Below are positions 1 through 29,715 of a stretch of 36,921 nt of DNA, one piece after another. The notes below the pieces were generated by a model. The model saw only the letters and a program-made list of their open reading frames with translations. It made no database searches and was not told where the DNA came from. Each line of letters starts with the position of its first letter. The first letter of the stretch is position 1. The translations under genes and the position numbers were made by a program. The DNA lies in the IMG/VR virus record IMGVR_UViG_3300021376_000158, positions 1-36,921 of that record; one strand, given 5' to 3'. The stretch is from a virus.

Positions 1-98
1 CACTCGGCACTAATTCCACGATGACGTTTGAGCGTACTTCCAACACTTCTCTGACGATTAAGGTGCGCGGCTCTGACGGCACCACTCGCTCGGTCTCG
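1..98. repeat. Terminal direct repeat, left copy
   Basis: This copy is identical to the last 98 bases of the window. Joining the copies keeps the tail-fibre reading frame open up to TAA at 111-113. This is the usual signature of a circular contig closed by an assembly overlap. It could in principle be a short physical terminal repeat, but its position inside a coding sequence makes assembly closure more likely. Confidence 0.95.
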
Positions 99-113
99 CT
101 AACCCTCGCCTAA
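1..113 (+). CDS. Tail fibre/structural protein, C-terminal end (wraps from 34990)
   Basis: Codons starting at position 3 continue the frame of the gene that begins at 34990 and leaves the right end of the window. The segment encodes about 36 residues (LGTNSTMTFERT...) ending SVSLTLA and stops at TAA 111-113. After removing the 98-bp overlap, the complete product is 648 residues. The next gene starts five bases after the stop, so the fibre and the following virion genes look like one transcription unit. Confidence 0.9.
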   Translation, partial: LGTNSTMTFERTSNTSLTIKVRGSDGTTRSVSLTLA

Positions 114-118
114 AATCT

Positions 119-493
119 ATGCAAACCACCATCTCACCCGTCCAAGTTTATCCGTCCACCGCAAACACGCTGATGATTCGCTCGATCACGCTCGGCCCGC
201 CGCCCGCATATTACTACGAGTTGCAGGATGTGCAGACCGTGGAGAAGACCCGCGAGGTCGCCAATCCTGCCCACGTTCCCGCAAGCGTGGACGCGGACGG
301 CAATGCTGTCGCCGCGCAGGGCGCACCCACGATCACCGAGACCTACGAGGAGACGACGGTTGTCGTGCTGAAGAACGGCAACACCTCGATGACCATCGAC
401 CAATGGGACGCTTGGCCCGCTGGCCCAGAGTCGGGCGACGACGACTACCAGCTTAATGCCATCACGGCCAACCTTGGCCTGACCCGCGCTTGA
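119..493 (+). CDS. Hypothetical small virion-region protein (124 aa)
   Basis: This 124-residue acidic protein has no signal peptide or membrane segment. Residues 85-124 (VVLKNG..SMTIDQWDAWPAG...DDDYQLNAITANLGL) resemble a short C-terminal module often seen in small proteins encoded beside phage fibre genes; this is family recognition by eye, not a search result. It starts five bases after the fibre stop, and its TGA shares one base with the ATG of the next gene, so the three are probably cotranslated. A fibre-associated or chaperone role is possible but unproven. Confidence 0.7.
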   Translation: MQTTISPVQVYPSTANTLMIRSITLGPPPAYYYELQDVQTVEKTREVANPAHVPASVDADGNAVAAQGAPTITETYEETTVVVLKNGNTSMTIDQWDAWPAGPESGDDDYQLNAITANLGLTRA

Positions 494-4285: not shown

Positions 4286-6112
4286 ATGCCTCCCGTTGTC
4301 CTTCCTCCTTTTGTAGTCAACGCGGCTCCATTTCGGCAATCGCTTGGGTTTGGTATTTCAGAGCCGGATGAATTTGATACTGATGGAATAGAAATCAGCC
4401 CAGGCATATTTAATTTTGACACAAACATTTTCCAAGGGCCGCTAAGAGGCGGACAAAACCAAATTGTCACATTGCCGCCATTTGTGGTGACGGCAGATCG
4501 CATTGACACGCCGGGGCTCGCTACGCCGTACATGGGCACCCCTTTCTATGTCCGCCCAGAGGGAACTGAAGGAATCGAGCAGTCTCCAACCCCCTACATG
4601 GGCACCCCTTTCTACGTTCGCCCAGAAGGAACTGAAAGAATCGAGCAGTCTCCAACCCCCTACATGGGCACCCCTTTCTATGTCAGTACGGACAGGATCA
4701 CAACTCCATCAATTGAGATTACGCCTGGCATCTTTAATCCTCCTACGGTTGGACCGCCTTTATTGTCCCCAACCCCCTACATGGGCACCCCTTTCTACGT
4801 TAGTACGGATAGGATCACAACCCCATTAATTGAGATTACGCCTGGCATCTTTAATCCTCCTACGTTTGGACCGCCTTTACTGTCTCCAACCCCCCTGGTA
4901 TCCACACCTATCCCAACTCCGTCTCCGTTTGAGCCATCTCTAACGCTTCCATCCCCGACGCCTACGCCCATCGTTGGAGGAGGAGGCCCTTCCACCGTGA
5001 CTACTACTTCTACAGGAACCTCGCCCCAGCGCGACTTTGAAGCGGAATTGGGCAAAACGCTCGTCGCTCTGTCGCGCTACCAGCCGCAGATGCTTGGAAT
5101 GTATAAGGACTTGTATCAGTCGTTTATGCCGGCTGGGCTGACAGCGGCTGAGACCAGCGGACTAGCCCAGATGCGGGCGGATGAGGAAAAGCTCAACCGC
5201 CTGCGTCAGGGCATCCTGAGCCCCGAGGATATCCGTACCGCCACCCAGGGCGCGAGGGAGGCCTACGGCGCCCGCGGGCAAGTGTTTGCGCCTGGCGCCA
5301 TTGGAGCGGAAATCCTTAACCGGGAAGCCATCCGCCAGCAGCGGGAGGATCAGGCCCGTGCTGCCTATCAGCAGTCGATGGGCAACCTGATGAACGTAGC
5401 CAATCTGCAAACCGGCAACATCTTCCAGCCCATCAGCAGCCTGCTGTCCAGTTCTTTCAACCCGCTCGGTGCCTACCCGGCGGATGTGTACGGGACCAAC
5501 GTCAATGCCGCCTTGGCCCGAGAAATCGCGGAGCGCAACAAGGAGGCCGCCATCGAGTCTGCCCGGCTCTCTGGACAGGCTCAAAGTTCGGCTGCTCGAG
5601 CTTCTGCTGGTGGCAGCATCGCAGGTGCAGCACTCCCATTTGCCATCAAAGGCGTAGGCGCTCTGTTCAGTATCCCGCTTCCGTCTTGTATGCCTGGCAA
5701 TCAGTGCATCGATACCCCCACCGGCCCCAAGGCCATTCAAGACCTCAAAGGCGGAGATATCGTCATCGGCTACGATGGCAGGGAAGCCTTCATCATGCAG
5801 GCGTGCAGTTGGAACCAAGATCCGACCCGTACCTTCCTCACGATCACCCGCGAGGACGGCACCGCCTTCACGGTGTGCGATGACCATAAGATCCTTGGCA
5901 TTCCCGCGATGGAGTGGGCGGAAGGTGCGGATATGGCGGGCAGCCGCATCAAGTCCATCACGGCCAGTAACGGCTTCCTGACCAGCTACGACATCCTGAC
6001 CAATCAGGGCGGTTATCGGATTGCCGGCGTGCCGGTGAACTCGATGATCCCTGAGATCATCCGCCTTGCCGCCCGCTTTGAGGCCCTGAGTGCCTCGCAG
6101 AACCCCGCCTAA
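4286..6112 (+). CDS. Virion protein with proline-rich repeats and C-terminal Hint (intein-like) domain (608 aa)
   Basis: Residues 1-79 contain LPPFVVNA and LPPFVVTADRI. Residues 80-201 are four tandem units starting TPYMGTPFYV (two of 22 and two of 39 residues). Residues about 235-440 are helical and resemble internal or core proteins of short-tailed phages (AREAYGARGQ...AEILNREAIRQQR). Residues about 440-466 are a Gly/Ala-rich hydrophobic stretch. Residues 468-585 match a Hint domain: Cys468 in CMPGNQC followed by G.KAI.DLKGGDIV (block A), DDHKIL (block B), SYDI (block F) and GVPVNS with Asn585 followed by Ser586 (block G). There is no homing endonuclease. Only 23 residues follow. It may self-cleave or splice late in assembly. 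The block-G His is Val and the block-B Thr is Cys, so activity is uncertain. Confidence 0.8.
   Translation: MPPVVLPPFVVNAAPFRQSLGFGISEPDEFDTDGIEISPGIFNFDTNIFQGPLRGGQNQIVTLPPFVVTADRIDTPGLATPYMGTPFYVRPEGTEGIEQSPTPYMGTPFYVRPEGTERIEQSPTPYMGTPFYVSTDRITTPSIEITPGIFNPPTVGPPLLSPTPYMGTPFYVSTDRITTPLIEITPGIFNPPTFGPPLLSPTPLVSTPIPTPSPFEPSLTLPSPTPTPIVGGGGPSTVTTTSTGTSPQRDFEAELGKTLVALSRYQPQMLGMYKDLYQSFMPAGLTAAETSGLAQMRADEEKLNRLRQGILSPEDIRTATQGAREAYGARGQVFAPGAIGAEILNREAIRQQREDQARAAYQQSMGNLMNVANLQTGNIFQPISSLLSSSFNPLGAYPADVYGTNVNAALAREIAERNKEAAIESARLSGQAQSSAARASAGGSIAGAALPFAIKGVGALFSIPLPSCMPGNQCIDTPTGPKAIQDLKGGDIVIGYDGREAFIMQACSWNQDPTRTFLTITREDGTAFTVCDDHKILGIPAMEWAEGADMAGSRIKSITASNGFLTSYDILTNQGGYRIAGVPVNSMIPEIIRLAARFEALSASQNPA
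4523..4888 (+). repeat. Tandem coding repeats (2 x 66 bp, 2 x 117 bp)
   Basis: Units begin at 4523, 4589, 4655 and 4772, each opening with codons for TPYMGTPFYV. The first two are 66 bp and the last two 117 bp. They differ by only a few substitutions, so the duplications look recent. Related fragments (IEISPGIFN) lie just upstream at about residues 36-44. Unit number could vary by slippage or recombination without breaking the frame. Confidence 0.95.
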
Positions 6113-6117
6113 ACGCC

Positions 6118-7626
6118 ATGCCCTACAATCCAGGTATCCAGGATATCAGCGGCCAACTGATCGCGCAGGGGATGTCGCAGGCCAGCGCAGCGCGGGCGCG
6201 GGCGATGGAGAACATCGGCCAGTCCATCTCCGGTGCCATCACCAGCGGGTTCAAGCAGTATCAGCAGAACCAGTTCCTGACCAAGCAGGCGATGGGCAAG
6301 TTCGGAGCCCAACTGCAGGACGAAAACTTCAAGAAGTACGTTTCCGGGGTATTGGCAGACGACCCCAATTCCCCGACTGTCCCTGAGCCACTAAAGAAGG
6401 CCCTACAGAATGCCCAGAAGGGCGATGTAGACATCTACGATGCCGCCCTGCTGGGCAGTCTGGCGGATACCTACAAGGAGAACCGTGAGGGCCGATTGAT
6501 GGAGGCGCAGATCGCAAAGCTGCGTGCTGAAACTGGCCAGTTTGGTCAGATTATGTCGATGGGCGATTACCAGGCTTTAATCGCGGCTAACCCCAGCGTT
6601 GACTTTGGGGCCAAGATTCTGTCGGATGGCCGAGTTGCGGTTCAGACGGGTGGGGCACGGGCACCTCAAGCTGCTAGGCCTTTGACCATTCAGCCAATGG
6701 GCGGTGGAGTTGGCGCATTTGATCCAGAAACTGGTGTACTTCGTCGTTTCACTGCCAATGTAGACGCGGGAATGCTCCCCAACGATCCAGCGCTTTTAAG
6801 CATAGTTCCGGGCCAGCCAGCGACCTCTCCAGAGGTGCCTCCGATGCTTAGTCGCTTCCAGCGGGCCGCAGAGGCCCCTGCTGGTCCGATGGCACTTGGC
6901 CGATTTATGGAGGCGCTTGCTCCGGGTGGCCCCATGGCTGCTCTTGGCCAGTTTGCTGGCCCGCCGCGAGCTGCTGCTCCCGCGCCTGCTCCTGCGCCTG
7001 CCCCACTGCCTGTTTACCGAAGAACTCCCCAGGGGCTGGAATTTAAGCCCATACCTGGCAGTAAGCAGGACATTGAGATGCGCGAAGCTGAAGCCCAGAA
7101 GCTCGCTGCGGAGCGTGCGCGGATGGAAAAGGCGCGGAACCTGATGTTCACGCTGGATGGCATCGAGCCTTTGATCGGTCCGCTATCCGTTGGTTTTGTT
7201 GGCCAGAAGACCAAAGGCCAGGGTGGCACTCCTGCAGCCAGTATGTCTTCGCTGCTCAAACAAGTGCAGGCCGCTACTGCGTTTGATGAGCTTGCCAAAC
7301 TGAAGGAATCCAAGACCTCGCTTGGTCAGGTGGCGATCAAGGAAATCGAACTCCTGCAGAATGCAGTGGTGGCGCTTGACCAGGATATGTCTGAAGAGGT
7401 GTTCCGCCGTCAGTATAAGGAACTCAGGCGCAAGACTCAGGAGACCATCCAGCGGCTGAACATCCTTGAGCGTGATCGCCAGGCTGGCCTGACGGCGCCC
7501 TCGGAAGACTACTACAAACTTGGAGGCGCGTCTTTGGAGGAACTAAACAAGCGCGGTGCTGCCGCAACGGCTCCGACAGATGCCACCTCCGCTCTTACCA
7601 AGGGGTCTGGATGGCGAGTGAAATAA
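6118..7626 (+). CDS. Putative internal virion/ejection protein (502 aa)
   Basis: This long, mostly helical protein has a Pro/Ala-rich linker (about residues 275-305, repeated AP dipeptides) separating N- and C-terminal halves. The N-terminal 100 residues (GQLIAQGMSQASAARARAMEN...) are typical of internal proteins encoded next to ejection genes in short-tailed phages. There is no signal peptide or enzymatic motif. It lies five bases after the Hint-domain gene and 18 bases before the next virion gene. The call rests mainly on position and composition. Confidence 0.6.
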   Translation: MPYNPGIQDISGQLIAQGMSQASAARARAMENIGQSISGAITSGFKQYQQNQFLTKQAMGKFGAQLQDENFKKYVSGVLADDPNSPTVPEPLKKALQNAQKGDVDIYDAALLGSLADTYKENREGRLMEAQIAKLRAETGQFGQIMSMGDYQALIAANPSVDFGAKILSDGRVAVQTGGARAPQAARPLTIQPMGGGVGAFDPETGVLRRFTANVDAGMLPNDPALLSIVPGQPATSPEVPPMLSRFQRAAEAPAGPMALGRFMEALAPGGPMAALGQFAGPPRAAAPAPAPAPAPLPVYRRTPQGLEFKPIPGSKQDIEMREAEAQKLAAERARMEKARNLMFTLDGIEPLIGPLSVGFVGQKTKGQGGTPAASMSSLLKQVQAATAFDELAKLKESKTSLGQVAIKEIELLQNAVVALDQDMSEEVFRRQYKELRRKTQETIQRLNILERDRQAGLTAPSEDYYKLGGASLEELNKRGAAATAPTDATSALTKGSGWRVK

Positions 7627-7644: not shown

Positions 7645-9384
7645 ATGGCCACCAAACCTATTGAACTGACGAGTGAGGCATCTGGCCGTACCTATGTTTG
7701 GGATAAGCCGGAGCCGCCCAATGATCGGGACATTGCTGAGTTAATGGCGGCGGACCGTGCCTTCCTTGAGGAACGCGCCCAGGGCGAACAGAAGGTGCTG
7801 GAAGCGGCAAAGTCCGGGGCCATGTTCAGTGGCGTAGCCCCGCTTAACCCGGTAGCTTTGCGGGAATCCGTCGCTACAATGGCTAAGGAAGCGGCTCCTG
7901 CATTGGTTGAAGGTGGCCTGACCACGGTTGGACAGGCTGCTGGCTTTGCCGCTGCTGGTCCGCCCGGCGCTTCCGTGGGTGGCGCTATTGGTGGCGCGGG
8001 TGGCAATGTTTTGGCCCAGATGATGCGTATGCCTGAGCAGCCGATTTCCGGCCCAGAAGTTGCCGGTGCAGCCGTCTCTGGTGCGGTGCCTGGCTCGGGC
8101 CTGCCCAAGATGGGACTAAAGGGCCTTGTAGGTGAGGCCAGAAAACAGGTTGTAGCCAATGTCGGTGGTCTGGCCTTGCAACGTCTGCTGGAGGGCAAGC
8201 CGCTGGAGCCTGAGGAAGCGGCCATGTTCGCGGGTATGGCTACGCTATCAACTGCGCTTGGTAAGCTAGTTGACCCCGGCAAGATCGCCAGTGCTGCTGA
8301 ACGTCGCGCCATTCACGATTACCACAATGATCTGGCAATGAAGGCGCTCCAGCAGAGGGGTATGAAGATTCTGCCTTCAATGCGTAATCCCAGCCGCCTC
8401 AATGCGGCCTTGGAAGTTCTTGCTGGGAAAGACGCCACCATTGCTGACATTCGCAGGCTGAATGAAGAACTGTTTACTGGGATCGCTGCGGCCCAAGTTG
8501 GCATTGAGCCTAAGATTGGCGTCAAGTTAAGCACCCAACTGGATGCGGCAAGCAAGGATGCATCCAAGTTTTTTGGCGAAATCAATGAACTTGCCGCCAA
8601 ACACGCTGACGATCTGCAGGCACTTAAAAAGACAGAACTTACCGCCGCCAACGCCCATGAGCTTGAGGTCATCCGTTCTGATCCGGCCTACGTCGCAAAG
8701 ACTTCTGAACTTACCGTAAAGGCCAAGGCTGATGCGGACAAGTTTTTGCGGGCCAAGGATGAACTAAAGTTGGCGAATAAACAGTATGATCGAACTGGAG
8801 TTCGTGAGGATCTGGACAAGGTCAAATATTGGCAGAAGAAGAGTGATGAATACGCGAAGGACTTGGAAGCCGGTCTGATTGCGATGGATCGCAAAGACCT
8901 TCACGATAGGTTTTTGGAGGCGCGTCGGAAGATTGGCATGATCAATGAAATTGAGGATTCTTTGACCCCAGGTGAATTTGTAGACCCCCAGAAACTGGCC
9001 GCTGCCCAGGAGCGCGGGGTGCCGTTTACTGGAGATCTGGAGAGGCTGGCCCGCTTCGCCAATGACCCACGCTTCAAGTCATTGACCACGCTGCAGGTAA
9101 AAACGCCAAATGAGGCATCTGGGCGCCTAGGGCAGTTCATGGATGTCGTGACCGAGCCGGGTCGCACGCTGCTCAAATCCGACTTGTACCAGAGGATGGT
9201 TGCCGCCTCCGACCCAGCCGCGATGCCTGACTTCATCAGCCGGTTCGCCCGCACCGCCGCTCAAGCCGAGATGGAGCAGCAGGAGGCGCAGAAGAACCGC
9301 GTGCTGGAGTTCTACAAGAACGTGTACCCGCGCCAGCAGCCGCAGCAGCCCCAGCAGACCCCGCGCCCAGTGCCTTACCGCTAA
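7645..9384 (+). CDS. Putative DNA-ejection protein with glycine-zipper segment (579 aa)
   Basis: The N-terminus (SGRTYVWDKPEPPNDRDIAELM) resembles a short motif common at the start of internal virion proteins. Residues about 85-135 are Gly/Ala-rich with GxxxG spacing and could insert in a membrane. Residues 200-440 are rich in Ala, Lys and Glu, consistent with a long coiled coil. The C-terminus is a Gln/Pro-rich tail. Such architecture is typical of ejection proteins that line a trans-envelope channel. It is the last large virion gene before the lysis region. Confidence 0.62.
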   Translation: MATKPIELTSEASGRTYVWDKPEPPNDRDIAELMAADRAFLEERAQGEQKVLEAAKSGAMFSGVAPLNPVALRESVATMAKEAAPALVEGGLTTVGQAAGFAAAGPPGASVGGAIGGAGGNVLAQMMRMPEQPISGPEVAGAAVSGAVPGSGLPKMGLKGLVGEARKQVVANVGGLALQRLLEGKPLEPEEAAMFAGMATLSTALGKLVDPGKIASAAERRAIHDYHNDLAMKALQQRGMKILPSMRNPSRLNAALEVLAGKDATIADIRRLNEELFTGIAAAQVGIEPKIGVKLSTQLDAASKDASKFFGEINELAAKHADDLQALKKTELTAANAHELEVIRSDPAYVAKTSELTVKAKADADKFLRAKDELKLANKQYDRTGVREDLDKVKYWQKKSDEYAKDLEAGLIAMDRKDLHDRFLEARRKIGMINEIEDSLTPGEFVDPQKLAAAQERGVPFTGDLERLARFANDPRFKSLTTLQVKTPNEASGRLGQFMDVVTEPGRTLLKSDLYQRMVAASDPAAMPDFISRFARTAAQAEMEQQEAQKNRVLEFYKNVYPRQQPQQPQQTPRPVPYR

Positions 9385-10355: not shown

Positions 10356-10394
10356 AAACCTGGGTGGTGCTCTGTGACGGTCGCGCTGCGACCC

Positions 10395-11708
10395 ATGAAC
10401 AACGACGGCAGTGTGTTTATTCAGATTGCGGCCTATCGTGATCCCGAATTGGTACCGACAGTTCTGGACTGTCTGGCGAAAGCCAAGAATCCCGACAAAT
10501 TAAGGATTGGCATCTGCTGGCAGTATGCCGAAGGCGATAGCATCGCCCAGATCGCGCATCTCCCGCAGGTGCGATTCATTGCCGTGCCTTACCATGAGAG
10601 CAAGGGCGCCTGCTGGGCGCGGGCGATCGCAAGCGAACTCTACGAGGATCAGGAGTTCTATATGCAAATCGACAGTCATCATCGGTTTGATGAGCATTGG
10701 GACGCCAAGATCATCGCCATGCTGATCGGTTTGGAATCCGATGGAGTCAAAAAACCACTCCTGACATCATACCCGCCGTCGTATGATCCCAAGAATGATC
10801 CGGCAGGGAGGGCGCATGGCGGCATTCAGATCGACTTCCATGTTTTTTCGGAATCGTCCGTCTGGTTCACCGGCTCCTCGCAGATCAAGCACTGGAACAG
10901 CCTGACAAAACCGATCCGAGGTCGATTCTTTGCCGGCGGCTTCGCCTTTGCCCGTGGATCATTCGTGCGTGAGGTTCCAAACGACCCTGGGTATTATTTC
11001 CAGGGCGAGGAGATGAATATGTCGTTCCGGGCGTTCTCGCATGGGTATGACATTTACCATCCGCACCAGCCTGTGGTCTGGCACCAGTACTACCGCCATG
11101 AAATCCCGAAACATTGGAAGGATCATGTCCCCAACCCGGAAGAGAGAGATCAGAAGAAGATCACCTGGGAAAAGCTGAACCAGGAAAGCTACAAGCGCAT
11201 CAAGCACTTCTTTTCCTTCGCGGGGTATCGCTACGAGGACATCGAGTGGGGAAAATTCGGGCGCGGCACGGCCCGCACCTTGCGTGACTTTGAACTCTTC
11301 TGCGGGATCGATTTTCGCCAGAAACGCATCACCAAGAACTGCCTTGACAAGGGCGAGCCGCTGGCCTCCTGGGACCGCAATATGCCCGATGAGGAGTGGA
11401 ACAAGCTGCTCCTGCATATGTACGAGCACACCATCGAGTTGATGCCCGGAACACTCACGCTGGATGACTACGATTTCATCTACGTTGGCTATGAGCGGGC
11501 GGATGGCACCAGCATCTACAACATAAATCTGAAGGATGATGCTTTGAAGGCCCTATTGACCGCATTGCAGCAGCCAAACGTGTCCTATCCTTTGGTAACG
11601 CGGTTCTTTTCGGACCAGATGCCGCACAAATGGGTCTTCTGGCCCCACAGCAAGAGCAGGAAGTGGATCGGCCGTATCAGCGGCCATCTGCCCAGGATCG
11701 TCCACTAA
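10395..11708 (+). CDS. GT60-family (GlcNAc-transferase, PF11397-like) glycosyltransferase (437 aa)
   Basis: The product begins SVFIQIAAYRDPELVPTVLDCL...NPDKLRIGICWQ, the characteristic start of polypeptide GlcNAc-transferases of family GT60. FYMQIDSHHRFDEHWD (residues 88-103, with D93 and H95) is the metal/nucleotide-sugar DxD-like site. In-frame GTG 10374 is an alternative start; ATG 10395 places the family motif at the expected N-terminus. In known GT60 enzymes UDP-GlcNAc is transferred to Ser/Thr or hydroxyproline. In a phage the target may be a virion protein or a host surface component; that is inference. Its 3' end overlaps the convergent FkbM gene by 32 bp, and no terminator is seen between them. 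Confidence 0.82.
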   Translation: MNNDGSVFIQIAAYRDPELVPTVLDCLAKAKNPDKLRIGICWQYAEGDSIAQIAHLPQVRFIAVPYHESKGACWARAIASELYEDQEFYMQIDSHHRFDEHWDAKIIAMLIGLESDGVKKPLLTSYPPSYDPKNDPAGRAHGGIQIDFHVFSESSVWFTGSSQIKHWNSLTKPIRGRFFAGGFAFARGSFVREVPNDPGYYFQGEEMNMSFRAFSHGYDIYHPHQPVVWHQYYRHEIPKHWKDHVPNPEERDQKKITWEKLNQESYKRIKHFFSFAGYRYEDIEWGKFGRGTARTLRDFELFCGIDFRQKRITKNCLDKGEPLASWDRNMPDEEWNKLLLHMYEHTIELMPGTLTLDDYDFIYVGYERADGTSIYNINLKDDALKALLTALQQPNVSYPLVTRFFSDQMPHKWVFWPHSKSRKWIGRISGHLPRIVH

Positions 11709-20362: not shown

Positions 20363-20413
20363 TCAAATTGGGTCAGATCAAATTGGGTCAGATCAAATCA
20401 AGTTGGGTCAAAC
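20363..20413. repeat. TCAAAT/TTGGG array next to the HTH regulator start
   Basis: TCAAAT-like words start at 20363, 20378, 20393, 20398 (TCAAGT) and 20408 (TCAAAC), with TCAGAT at 20373 and 20388. All spacings are multiples of 5 bp, with TTGGG between them. It lies directly upstream of the regulator ATG and would overlap its promoter. Likely operators of the regulator; an iteron origin is an alternative. Confidence 0.7.
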
Positions 20414-21619: not shown

Positions 21620-21648
21620 GGGTCAAGATTAAATTGGAAAAAATCAGA

Positions 21649-21739
21649 TCAAATCAGGCCGGATCAAATCGGATCAAATTGCCCAGGATCAAATCGCCCA
21701 GGGTCAAATCACCCAGGATCAAATCCAGGCGGGTCAAAT
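21649..21739. repeat. TCAAAT array, seven copies at 15-bp spacing
   Basis: TCAAAT starts at 21649, 21664, 21674, 21689, 21704, 21719 and 21734, giving steps of 15, 10, 15, 15, 15 and 15 bp. Most are flanked as GG(A/G)TCAAATC with a CCCAGG-type spacer. The same word and the same multiples-of-5 spacing occur at 20363-20413 beside the HTH regulator. Likely protein-binding iterons (operator array or origin). Confidence 0.75.
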
Positions 21740-21914
21740 CGAGGGCGGCGAATCCGGCCGGGGTCCGGCCAGGCCTCCCCCGCCGGTAGCGTTTGCGGGC
21801 CAGCTGCGGCCCGTTTGCGGCCCATTCCCCCGGCCGCCCGTGGCAAGGCCTCCCCCGCCGGCTCCCCGCGTTCCCCCGGCCGCCGGCCGCCCGCCCTCCC
21901 CCGGCCGTGGCCAC

Positions 21915-22012
21915 CGTTCCCCCGCGTTCCCCCGCGTTCCCCCGCCGGCCGGCCGTGGCACGCTCCCCCGCTCCCCCGCCGGCCGCCCGTGGCACGCTCC
22001 CCCGCTCCCCCG
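21915..22012. repeat. GC-rich tandem repeats
   Basis: Three exact 10-bp units CGTTCCCCCG occupy 21915-21944. A 26-bp unit (CCGTGGCACGCTCC...) occurs at 21953-21978 and again at 21987-22012, spaced 34 bp. The block is almost free of A. It is C-rich on the plus strand and would form a G-rich transcript on the minus strand. Confidence 0.85.
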
Positions 22013-22041
22013 GCCGCCGGTACCGGCCGCGAGCTTGCACG

Positions 22042-27567: not shown

Positions 27568-29715
27568 ATGAGTTCCATTGACTCCCTCAACACCTCCGTC
27601 CCCAACGACCCCGGCCTGCAACTAGCCCCCGTTGGCGATTCCGGCCCCGATTTCAACACCCTGGTCAAGGCCTTCGAGGACTGCGTGCGCGACAACCAGC
27701 CCTACGTTGACCAGTGCCGTTGCAACTACGAGACCCGGTACGCGATCTGGAACGGCCAGTCCGCCGATGGCAAGAAACACGCCCGCGAGGGCAGCAAGAC
27801 CAGCCCCACGCCCTGGGACGGCGCCTCGGACCTGCGCGTCTTCCTCGTTGACAACATCATCAACAAGAAGGTGGCGATGCAGTGCATGGCCTTCCAGCGG
27901 GCCAATCTGGTGGCGGTGCCGGTGGGCACCAACGACATGGGCCGCTCGGTGCTGGTGACCAACTTCATGCGCTGGCTGATCCAGACGCAAATTCCCGAAA
28001 TCCAACGCGAGATCGAGATCGCCGCCAATTACATCAACGAGAAGGGCCTGGCGGTGATGGGGCAGTTCTATGAGAAGCGCCGCGAGAAGACGCTGGTCAA
28101 CGTGCGGATGGAGGATCTGCAGGTGCAGTTCCCCGAGATCGACATCACCGCGCTGATCAATGACAAGGGCGCGGAGAACGATTTGAAGAGCATCTTCGAG
28201 GAGCAGTACGGCTGCTCCCGCCAGAAAGCCGGCACCATGCTGCGCGAGTTGCGGAAGACCGGCGAGACCTCGGTGCCGATGGATGGCCCGGAGCGCAGTT
28301 TCCCGGTCATGCGCGCCTTCAACCTCGATGAGAACCTGTTTGTCCCCTCCTTCTCGCTTGATCTGGAGCGCGTGCCCGGCATCTACCGCGTGGAATACTT
28401 TACCGCCGAGCAGATGCGGCAATTGGTGCAGGATGACGGCTGGGACAAGGATTGGGTGGAAAAGGCCATCGAGACCCAGCGCGGGCGTCTGATCACGCTC
28501 AGTCCCTCCGAGTACCTCCAGCCCATCAGCCGCTCCTTCGTCTACACCCAGCAGCGTTTCACCGACAAGATCGGGGTGGTCTACGCCTACCAGCGGCTGT
28601 CCGACGAGGACGGCGTCCCCGGCATCTATTGCACCGTCTTCAACCCCCAGATGCCGCCCAGCGAAACCCAATCGGGATTCGCCAAGACGGGTCTGCTGGG
28701 CTACGCGCACGGCGAGTATCCGTTCGTGCTCTACCGGCGCGAGTACCTGTCGCGCAAACTGCACGACTCCCGCGGCGTGCCGGAGCCGGGCAAGTGCTGG
28801 CAGGATCAGATCAAGGCGCACAAGGACTCCCGCATCGACGCCGCATCGCTGGGTGTCTTGCCCCCCATCTGCTACCCGCAGGGACGCCCGCCGGGCCGCT
28901 GGGGTCCGGGGGCGATGATCTCCGAGCGCCGGCCCAACGAGTACCACTACGCCGACCGGCCGATCCCCGACATGAACACGGAGAATTCCGAGGCGCTGCT
29001 GGAGTCCTCCTTCAAGGAATACAACGGTTTTGCCGCCTCCAAGGGAGATCCGGCCATCGACCCGATCTACAACCAGTTTGAGGTCAATAAATTCCTCAAT
29101 TGTTTGGCGAAGAGCTTCCGGCAGATCTGGAAGTTGTACAAACAGTACGGCAGCGAGCAGATCGTCTTCCGCGTCATGGGCGTCAAGGACGCCGAGACCA
29201 TGATCTTCAACAAGGGGGACGTGAACGAGGAGTTTGATTTCTACCTCTCCTGGGACGTGCAGAGCACCGACTTCAAGATGATGTCGGAGAAATGGAGTGC
29301 CATCATCCAAGGCGCCCAATCCCTCGACCGCGAGGGCGTCTGCGATTGGGGCGCCCTGTTCCAATCCTTCGTCTCCTCCATCGATCCCAACATTGCGGAG
29401 CGCATCGTCCGCCCGGCCAAGACCGGCCAGCAGCAGGTGGTCAACGACGAGCAGCAGGATCTGGCGCAGATCTTTGCCGGGATACCGAAAAACATCCGCA
29501 TCGGCACGCCGCCGCAACTTGGTCTGCAGGTGATGCAGCAGTACTTGCAGCAGCCCGACGTGCAGCAGCGTTACGCCTCGGACGCCGCCTTCAAGGACCG
29601 TTTGGACGCCCGCGCCAAGCAGTACCAGTTCCAGATGCAACAGCAGCAAAACGCCACCATTGGCCGCTTTGGCGCCGCCATGCCGGGTCCGATGCCCGCC
29701 ACCACCTCGACCTGA
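27568..29715 (+). CDS. Portal protein (head-tail connector)
   Basis: This 715-residue protein directly follows TerL. SKTSPTPWDGASDLRVF and the surrounding N-terminal sequence, KEYNGFAASKGDPAID and a long C-terminal Gln-rich helix (QVMQQYLQQPDVQQRY...FQMQQQQN) are typical of P22/SU10-like portals. It would form the dodecameric DNA portal. Its TGA overlaps the next ATG by one base. The C-terminal barrel-type helix likely extends into the head. Confidence 0.85.
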   Translation: MSSIDSLNTSVPNDPGLQLAPVGDSGPDFNTLVKAFEDCVRDNQPYVDQCRCNYETRYAIWNGQSADGKKHAREGSKTSPTPWDGASDLRVFLVDNIINKKVAMQCMAFQRANLVAVPVGTNDMGRSVLVTNFMRWLIQTQIPEIQREIEIAANYINEKGLAVMGQFYEKRREKTLVNVRMEDLQVQFPEIDITALINDKGAENDLKSIFEEQYGCSRQKAGTMLRELRKTGETSVPMDGPERSFPVMRAFNLDENLFVPSFSLDLERVPGIYRVEYFTAEQMRQLVQDDGWDKDWVEKAIETQRGRLITLSPSEYLQPISRSFVYTQQRFTDKIGVVYAYQRLSDEDGVPGIYCTVFNPQMPPSETQSGFAKTGLLGYAHGEYPFVLYRREYLSRKLHDSRGVPEPGKCWQDQIKAHKDSRIDAASLGVLPPICYPQGRPPGRWGPGAMISERRPNEYHYADRPIPDMNTENSEALLESSFKEYNGFAASKGDPAIDPIYNQFEVNKFLNCLAKSFRQIWKLYKQYGSEQIVFRVMGVKDAETMIFNKGDVNEEFDFYLSWDVQSTDFKMMSEKWSAIIQGAQSLDREGVCDWGALFQSFVSSIDPNIAERIVRPAKTGQQQVVNDEQQDLAQIFAGIPKNIRIGTPPQLGLQVMQQYLQQPDVQQRYASDAAFKDRLDARAKQYQFQMQQQQNATIGRFGAAMPGPMPATTST

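Follow-up and report, generated by a model that had tools for sequence, protein, structure and literature searches.

A Hint domain with a putative N-side-only activity at the C-terminus of a probable phage ejection protein

What might a Hedgehog/intein-type (Hint) domain do at the end of a phage protein? The question is raised by the window, a 36.9-kb virus record analysed over its full length. Among the products of the window are the terminase large subunit (phrog_2, E 1.6e-19) and a major capsid protein of the SU10 type (Pfam). Of the phages matched, C75C1 has the most similar capsid protein (42% identity); podophages of Rhizobium, Sulfitobacter and Pseudomonas rank lower. An initial annotation of one of the window's open reading frames (ORFs) proposed a C-terminal Hint/mini-intein domain that may autocleave, either to release a membrane-active peptide or to trim a 23-residue tail. 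The features that bear on this proposal are as follows.

4286-6112, plus strand: Hint-domain ORF, 608 aa; by position a probable T7 gp14-like ejection (internal virion) protein
4529-4894, plus strand: near-perfect tandem DNA repeats of 66 and 117 bp, translated into PTPYMGTPFYV-type units within a Pro/Thr-rich N-terminal region
5024-5605, plus strand: conserved region, predicted to be all-helical (about residues 247-440; alignments), common to Hint-less phage relatives
5606-5686, plus strand: hydrophobic Gly/Ala-rich segment (about residues 441-467; sequence), directly before Cys468
5687-6043, plus strand: Hint domain, Cys468 to Ser586 (model, structural and profile alignments, Pfam)
5687-5689, plus strand: Cys468 of block A, at the position of intein residue 1 and Hedgehog Cys258; invariant (n=58)
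5876-5887, plus strand: block B C-x-x-H, with Cys531, which is Ser in part of the family, and His534, which does not vary
5984-5992, plus strand: block F S-Y-D, with Ser567 and Asp569 invariant
6038-6046, plus strand: invariant N585-S586-M587, aligned with the His and Asn of block G and with +1
6047-6109, plus strand: C-terminal tail, with a helix that begins directly after the Hint domain and conserved first residues (model, alignment)
6118-7626, plus strand: neighbouring probable ejection protein, 502 aa (phrog_2534, 'released from the phage upon host infection', E 1.3e-6)
7645-9384, plus strand: probable third ejection-cassette protein, 579 aa, with a Gly-zipper stretch (size, order)

The Hint fold and its host protein

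The proposed location of a Hint domain at the C-terminus is borne out by a confident model, by structural superposition and by homologue matches to the Hint_2 family. Its boundaries agree exactly with the translation, in which the first base of Cys468 lies at 5687 and Ser586 ends at 6043. The DLKGGDIV, DDHKIL and SYDI segments, Asn585, Ser586 and the 23 residues past Asn585 are likewise found where they had been read, a hydrophobic Gly/Ala-rich stretch (about residues 442-467) precedes Cys468, and the domain contains no endonuclease insert. A predicted model without structural similarity to Hint had been named as grounds for abandoning the proposal; the AF2 model of residues 462-608 (pLDDT 94, pTM 0.84) clearly adopts a Hint fold.

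Foldseek matches of this model comprise inteins, BIL domains and Hedgehog. The Hedgehog structure 1at0 (VIA Z 16.7, 1.8 Å, 118 aa) is tied with the inteins, among which 6bs8 (VIA Z 16.4) is level with several others, and superpositions on Hedgehog and inteins give an rmsd of 1.8-2.0 Å over ~117 residues. The window protein matches Pfam Hint (E 0.002) and Hint_2 (E 0.03) weakly and below cut-off, with a Hint_2 (PF13403) score of 15.0 bits against a cut-off of 28.4. Each of the 32 homologues that were aligned has a Hint_2 match at E<0.1, the best being 1.8e-9. In the PDB, a family profile detects gp41-1, a BIL domain and a consensus intein, with E values from 4e-4 to 3e-3. On the strength of the model and these matches, residues 468-586 form a genuine Hedgehog/intein-type Hint domain of a Hint_2-like family. 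To our knowledge, the chemistry of Hint_2 proteins is uncharacterised.

The initial annotation also called the protein a virion protein, a reading with which gene order and size agree and which we draw from synteny. The Hint-domain ORF sits between fibre/tail-like genes and the 502-aa gene, an order shared with the relative L002 and with Puniceispirillum phage HMO-2011. Protein lengths along the cassette are 821, 551 and 1072 aa in L002 and 706, 164, 502 and 1128 aa in HMO-2011. In the window, the 579-aa protein matches Pfam Gly-zipper_Omp weakly (E 0.006, below cut-off). In T7, gp14 forms the pore in the outer membrane, and homologues of gp15 are for the most part identified from their size and synteny (PMC8954989). 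The three-gene cassette looks like the gp14-gp15-gp16 order of T7, and synteny, size and one modest PHROG match to the neighbour suggest that the Hint-domain ORF is probably a gp14-like ejection/virion protein; homology to gp14 itself is seen neither in Pfam and PHROG matches nor in a low-confidence model (pLDDT 48) of the helical region.

The repeat-bearing N-terminal region varies greatly in length between relatives, whose proteins span 728-821 aa. Helices of the region at residues 247-440, for which Pfam and PHROG gave no match, appear in the low-confidence model (pLDDT 48), and a structural reading of this region was dropped because the model was too poor.

Register of the C-terminal residues

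Whether the domain could cut at both of its ends depends on which residues occupy the intein positions. Structural alignment pairs Cys468 (model residue 7) with intein residue 1 and Ser586 (model residue 125) with the last intein residue of gp41-1, MchDnaB, MsmDnaB, Mtu RecA, GyrA, PI-SceI and others. Model residues 7..125 align with 1..139 of 6bs8, 1..145 of 6rix and 1..440 of Mtu RecA, residues 5..125 with -1..125 of gp41-1, and residues 7..126 with 258..401 of Hedgehog; longer chains keep step, model residue 126 falling on 146 in 6riy and 127 on 156 in 6frg. An independent profile alignment (6dsl, E 4e-4) sets the block-G Gly of the family (G581) on the intein Gly, with Ser586 five residues later. 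Inteins have Asn at this distance past the block-G Gly. In many inteins the block-F His follows the block-F Asp by seven residues, and the residue seven positions after Asp569 is the invariant Gly576.

In the modelled register, Asn585 would thus take the place of the penultimate His, Ser586 that of the terminal Asn and Met587 the +1 position. This revises the initial annotation, which had taken Asn585 for the terminal block-G Asn, a Val for the substitute of the block-G His and Ser586 for the nucleophile of a mini-intein. Since Ser586 stands in for the terminal Asn and Met587 occupies +1, the machinery for Asn cyclisation and a +1 nucleophile are absent. Trimming of the 23-residue tail is therefore unlikely, and the invariant N585-S586-M587 block runs straight into a conserved helix. 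What stands of the proposed mini-intein chemistry is its N-side half, to which the block-A Cys and block-B His conform. Taken together, the register and Gly576 indicate that the parts for canonical C-side cleavage or splicing are absent and that those for an N-S acyl shift are kept. By its residues, the domain retains what a front-end cut would use and lacks what the back-end cut of an intein would use, an N-side-only pattern.

A comparison with characterized systems is consistent with this pattern. The gp41-1 and DnaB mini-inteins (6qaz, 6rix, 6bs8) share the fold and have blocks A, B and F in register with the window domain, but their block-G His-Asn is replaced here by Asn-Ser, their +1 residue by Met, and there is no continuous conserved extein. 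Besides the first residue, the sole constant of class 1 inteins is a C-terminal Asn, Gln or Asp (PMC7664689). The window domain has Ser586 at this position (G:7) and Met587 in place of a +1 Cys, Ser or Thr, and it does not interrupt a protein: the Hint-less relatives L008 and L017 end in an unrelated module rather than a joined tail. Class 3 inteins carry a block-F Cys of the WCT set, where the window protein has S567-Y-D569 with Cys468 at position 1, and A-type BIL domains end in His-Asn, where it has Asn585-Ser586. All three classes were rejected, as their defining residues are absent.

The closest likenesses are found elsewhere. B-type BIL domains have the intein motifs except the C-terminal one and are of an N-side cleavage type (PMC7765530). 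The window domain has the same set of motifs, a likeness by motifs alone, and differs in setting, since known B-type domains lie in variable regions of non-conserved bacterial proteins. The Hog domain of Hedgehog (1at0) is alike in fold, in its catalytic Cys at the start and in having no terminal Asn, and its chemistry is N-side-only (PMC7664689). Hog possesses a sterol-recognition region, whereas here 21 residues forming one helix follow Met587, and the domain is joined to a phage protein or a lipopeptide. Ser586 lies at about the position of Hedgehog Cys400. On paper, the window domain might thus work like a B-type BIL domain or like Hog without its sterol part; its fold, block-A Cys and block-B His (n=58) are those of the Hint superfamily at large.

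Relatives, conservation and exchange

Three viral contigs are 82-83% identical to the window in the Hint domain and about 60% identical in the part that precedes it, and five further viral contigs share about 55%. Annotated phage records gave no match to the window sequence and weak matches, to terminase inteins and other Hint proteins, with the sequence of a relative. Three candidates (L027-L029) were excluded from the family because they share the N-terminal blocks alone and look like ordinary inteins in terminase/primase-type genes. We found no description of this Hint family in the open-access literature on Hint/intein-like domains together with phage, virion or Verrucomicrobia.

A scan of genomes with the pattern G[VI]PVNSM, later repeated with a profile, identified 41 loci, 40 of them in Verrucomicrobia and one on a phage contig binned in an alphaproteobacterial metagenome-assembled genome (MAG). 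Within one family, 29 of 74 genomes match the profile. In an even sample of the whole phylum, the query genome was the sole strong match, so the gene appears to be restricted. The bacterial homologues are mostly 170-200 aa long (longer where an upstream ATG or a tail is taken), are normally encoded in single copy and have a common layout of signal peptide, lipobox-like Cys, 15-30 mostly hydrophobic residues, K-L-x-F-[ASG] and the Hint Cys. Position -5 is Lys and position -2 is Phe, Tyr or Leu in 40/40 Verrucomicrobia loci, and position -1 is Ala, Ser or Gly in 35/40.

A prophage origin of the Verrucomicrobia genes was rejected, as they lie among genes usual for a chromosome, such as those for sulfatase, peptidases, SufBD and biotin carboxylase; no conserved synteny surrounds them. 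In an unrooted tree, the phage sequences, including that of the binned contig, cluster together with good support and are separate from the bacterial sequences. The sampled Verrucomicrobia genomes contain no backbone relatives of the phage beyond one weak capsid match, and somewhat better capsid matches occur in the phylum of the alphaproteobacterial MAG. The same bacterial phylum also encodes proteins in which two or three Hint domains follow one another and VHNKG forms the end (L084, L085, L093); what they share with the present family is confined to the fold and the N-terminal blocks.

Across 58 sequences, 14 of 126 columns are invariant: C468, D476, G490, G495, Q505, H534, S567, D569, T572, G576, V584, N585, S586 and M587. 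All three N-side catalytic positions (C468, H534 and D569) are among them, for which the chance expectation is about 0.001. Phage and bacterial members are 33-42% identical, and dN/dS of the Hint domain is 0.01-0.09 in close phage pairs. These values point to strong purifying selection on the domain, and the invariant columns and low dN/dS are signs of a working domain rather than one in decay. Conservation of N-S-M could have been an artefact of the search pattern; the whole-genome profile search in one family ruled this out, since the triplet is invariant there even though the preceding residues vary (AVNSM, SVNSM, QVNSM).

The domain also changes places with another C-terminal module. L008 and L017 are 64% identical to the window in the upstream region but end in CWVAREVYG and have no Hint domain, and the Cys of the Hint domain aligns with the Cys of this module. 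The sequence IFCWVAREVYG is a very constant, nearly invariant C-terminal end of many phage proteins (L125-L164; L121:8001-8237). It is preceded by a Gly/Ala-rich hydrophobic stretch in most of 40 viral loci, and in none of these is it preceded by a Hint domain; no Pfam or PHROG family covers it in the cases scanned. HMO-2011 gene 25 (phage1322_25), which occupies the same place in the gene order and has a Gly/Ala-rich hydrophobic stretch followed by Cys, differs from the window gene in ending with this module. In one relative (L018/L161), the Hint-less gene appears to be broken by several frameshifts within about 900 bp, which are probably sequencing errors of the contig.

Divergence also differs between the two parts of the protein. 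The window and L002 are closer in the Hint domain (dN 0.12) than upstream (0.39), and the reverse holds for L002 and L014 (0.42 in the Hint domain, 0.14 upstream). These differing histories, together with the module swap, identify the Hint domain as an exchangeable C-terminal cap and indicate that it is exchanged between phage backbones.

N-side cleavage and its alternatives

The activity of the domain is something that we infer throughout. We judge N-side cleavage to be the most probable reading, followed by a silent fold, acyl transfer and C-side trimming. Putative N-side autocleavage at Ser467/Cys468, phage context included, is the best-supported mechanism, and we give it a little less than an even chance. 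Cys468, helped by His534, Cys531 and Asp569, would attack the Ser467-Cys468 bond to form a thioester, which would be resolved by water or another nucleophile. The 467-residue front part, ending in its hydrophobic Gly/Ala-rich helix, would then part from a 141-residue piece consisting of the Hint domain and tail. Neither Asn cyclisation nor splicing would follow, because the Asn place is held by Ser586, the block-G and block-F His places by Asn585 and Gly576, and +1 by Met587.

In the phage, the protein that undergoes this reaction would probably be an ejection protein like T7 gp14. Its Hint domain stands where related phages have the CWVAREVYG cap and could keep a membrane-active helix covered until assembly or ejection. 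In Verrucomicrobia, where the Hint domain lies 15-30 residues behind the lipobox-like Cys, such a cut would detach the domain from a short lipopeptide that anchors it. A membrane-associated segment directly before the Cys in both settings suggests a common effect, namely separation of this segment from the Hint domain. If cleavage occurs, the phage would have an injection-apparatus protein with a built-in self-processing domain and possibly a switch that exposes a membrane-active helix during genome delivery. The bacterial genes make up what seems to be a new family of small Verrucomicrobia lipoproteins with a Hint domain. If active, the domain would be a simple example of bacterial Hint chemistry limited to the N-side and separate from inteins and toxins.

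Several observations count against N-side cleavage. The block-B Thr is Cys or Ser in this family, the -1 residue is Met or Lys in some phages, and the Cys position is common to the unrelated CWVAREVYG module, so the Cys could have another role at the junction. The invariant residues, moreover, can serve folding or binding instead. This last point leads to a second and distinctly less probable reading, though a serious one, in which the Hint fold is catalytically silent and has a structural or binding role, covering the hydrophobic helix or attaching to a component of the envelope. That many invariant residues lie outside the N-side catalytic set (D476, Q505, S567, T572, N585, S586, M587), that the domain can be exchanged for a non-Hint module and that the open-access literature yielded no relative with tested activity all agree with a silent fold. 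Retention of C1, the block-B His and the block-F Asp in 58/58 sequences, despite the low identity between phage and bacterial members, would be unusual for a dead Hint domain.

Acyl transfer, which we consider unlikely, would begin with the same Cys468 thioester and pass it, Hedgehog-like, to an amine or hydroxyl of another molecule. The phage front part or the bacterial lipopeptide would thereby be joined to an envelope or virion component, and Ser586 may take part. Hedgehog is the best structural match (though tied with inteins), the invariant Ser586 falls at about the Cys400 place in the range 7..126 = 258..401, and both phage and bacterial forms have the membrane-associated segment just before the Cys. 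The sterol-recognition region is absent, however, leaving only a helix of about 20 residues, and no acceptor is known. Similarly improbable is a broader proposal, that an acyl-transfer domain common to Verrucomicrobia envelope lipoproteins and the phage ejection protein releases or covalently attaches a membrane-penetrating helix in the envelope.

Least probable is a mini-intein or A-type BIL domain that cuts after Asn585 to trim the 23-residue tail, or that splices slowly: Asn585-Ser586 is invariant and some inteins function without the penultimate His (PMC7664689), but structure and profile alignment match Ser586 with the terminal Asn and Asn585 with the penultimate His, the invariant Gly576 sits where block F would have its His, +1 is Met587, and a discarded tail would need neither a conserved Met587 nor a conserved start of its helix.

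Beyond the ejection cassette, the window contains dense short repeats at 20363-20410 (TCAAATTGGGTCAGA units) and at 21641-22020 (GC-rich CCCCCGCCGG units). A 675-aa open frame on the minus strand (27622-29649) lies opposite a 715-aa ORF (27568-29715) and is probably a composition effect. An anti-phage defence library gave no match. The ORF at 10374-11708 encodes a glycosyltransferase (Pfam GlcNAc, E 2e-74; phrog_24687, E 1.3e-106) that possibly modifies a surface structure.
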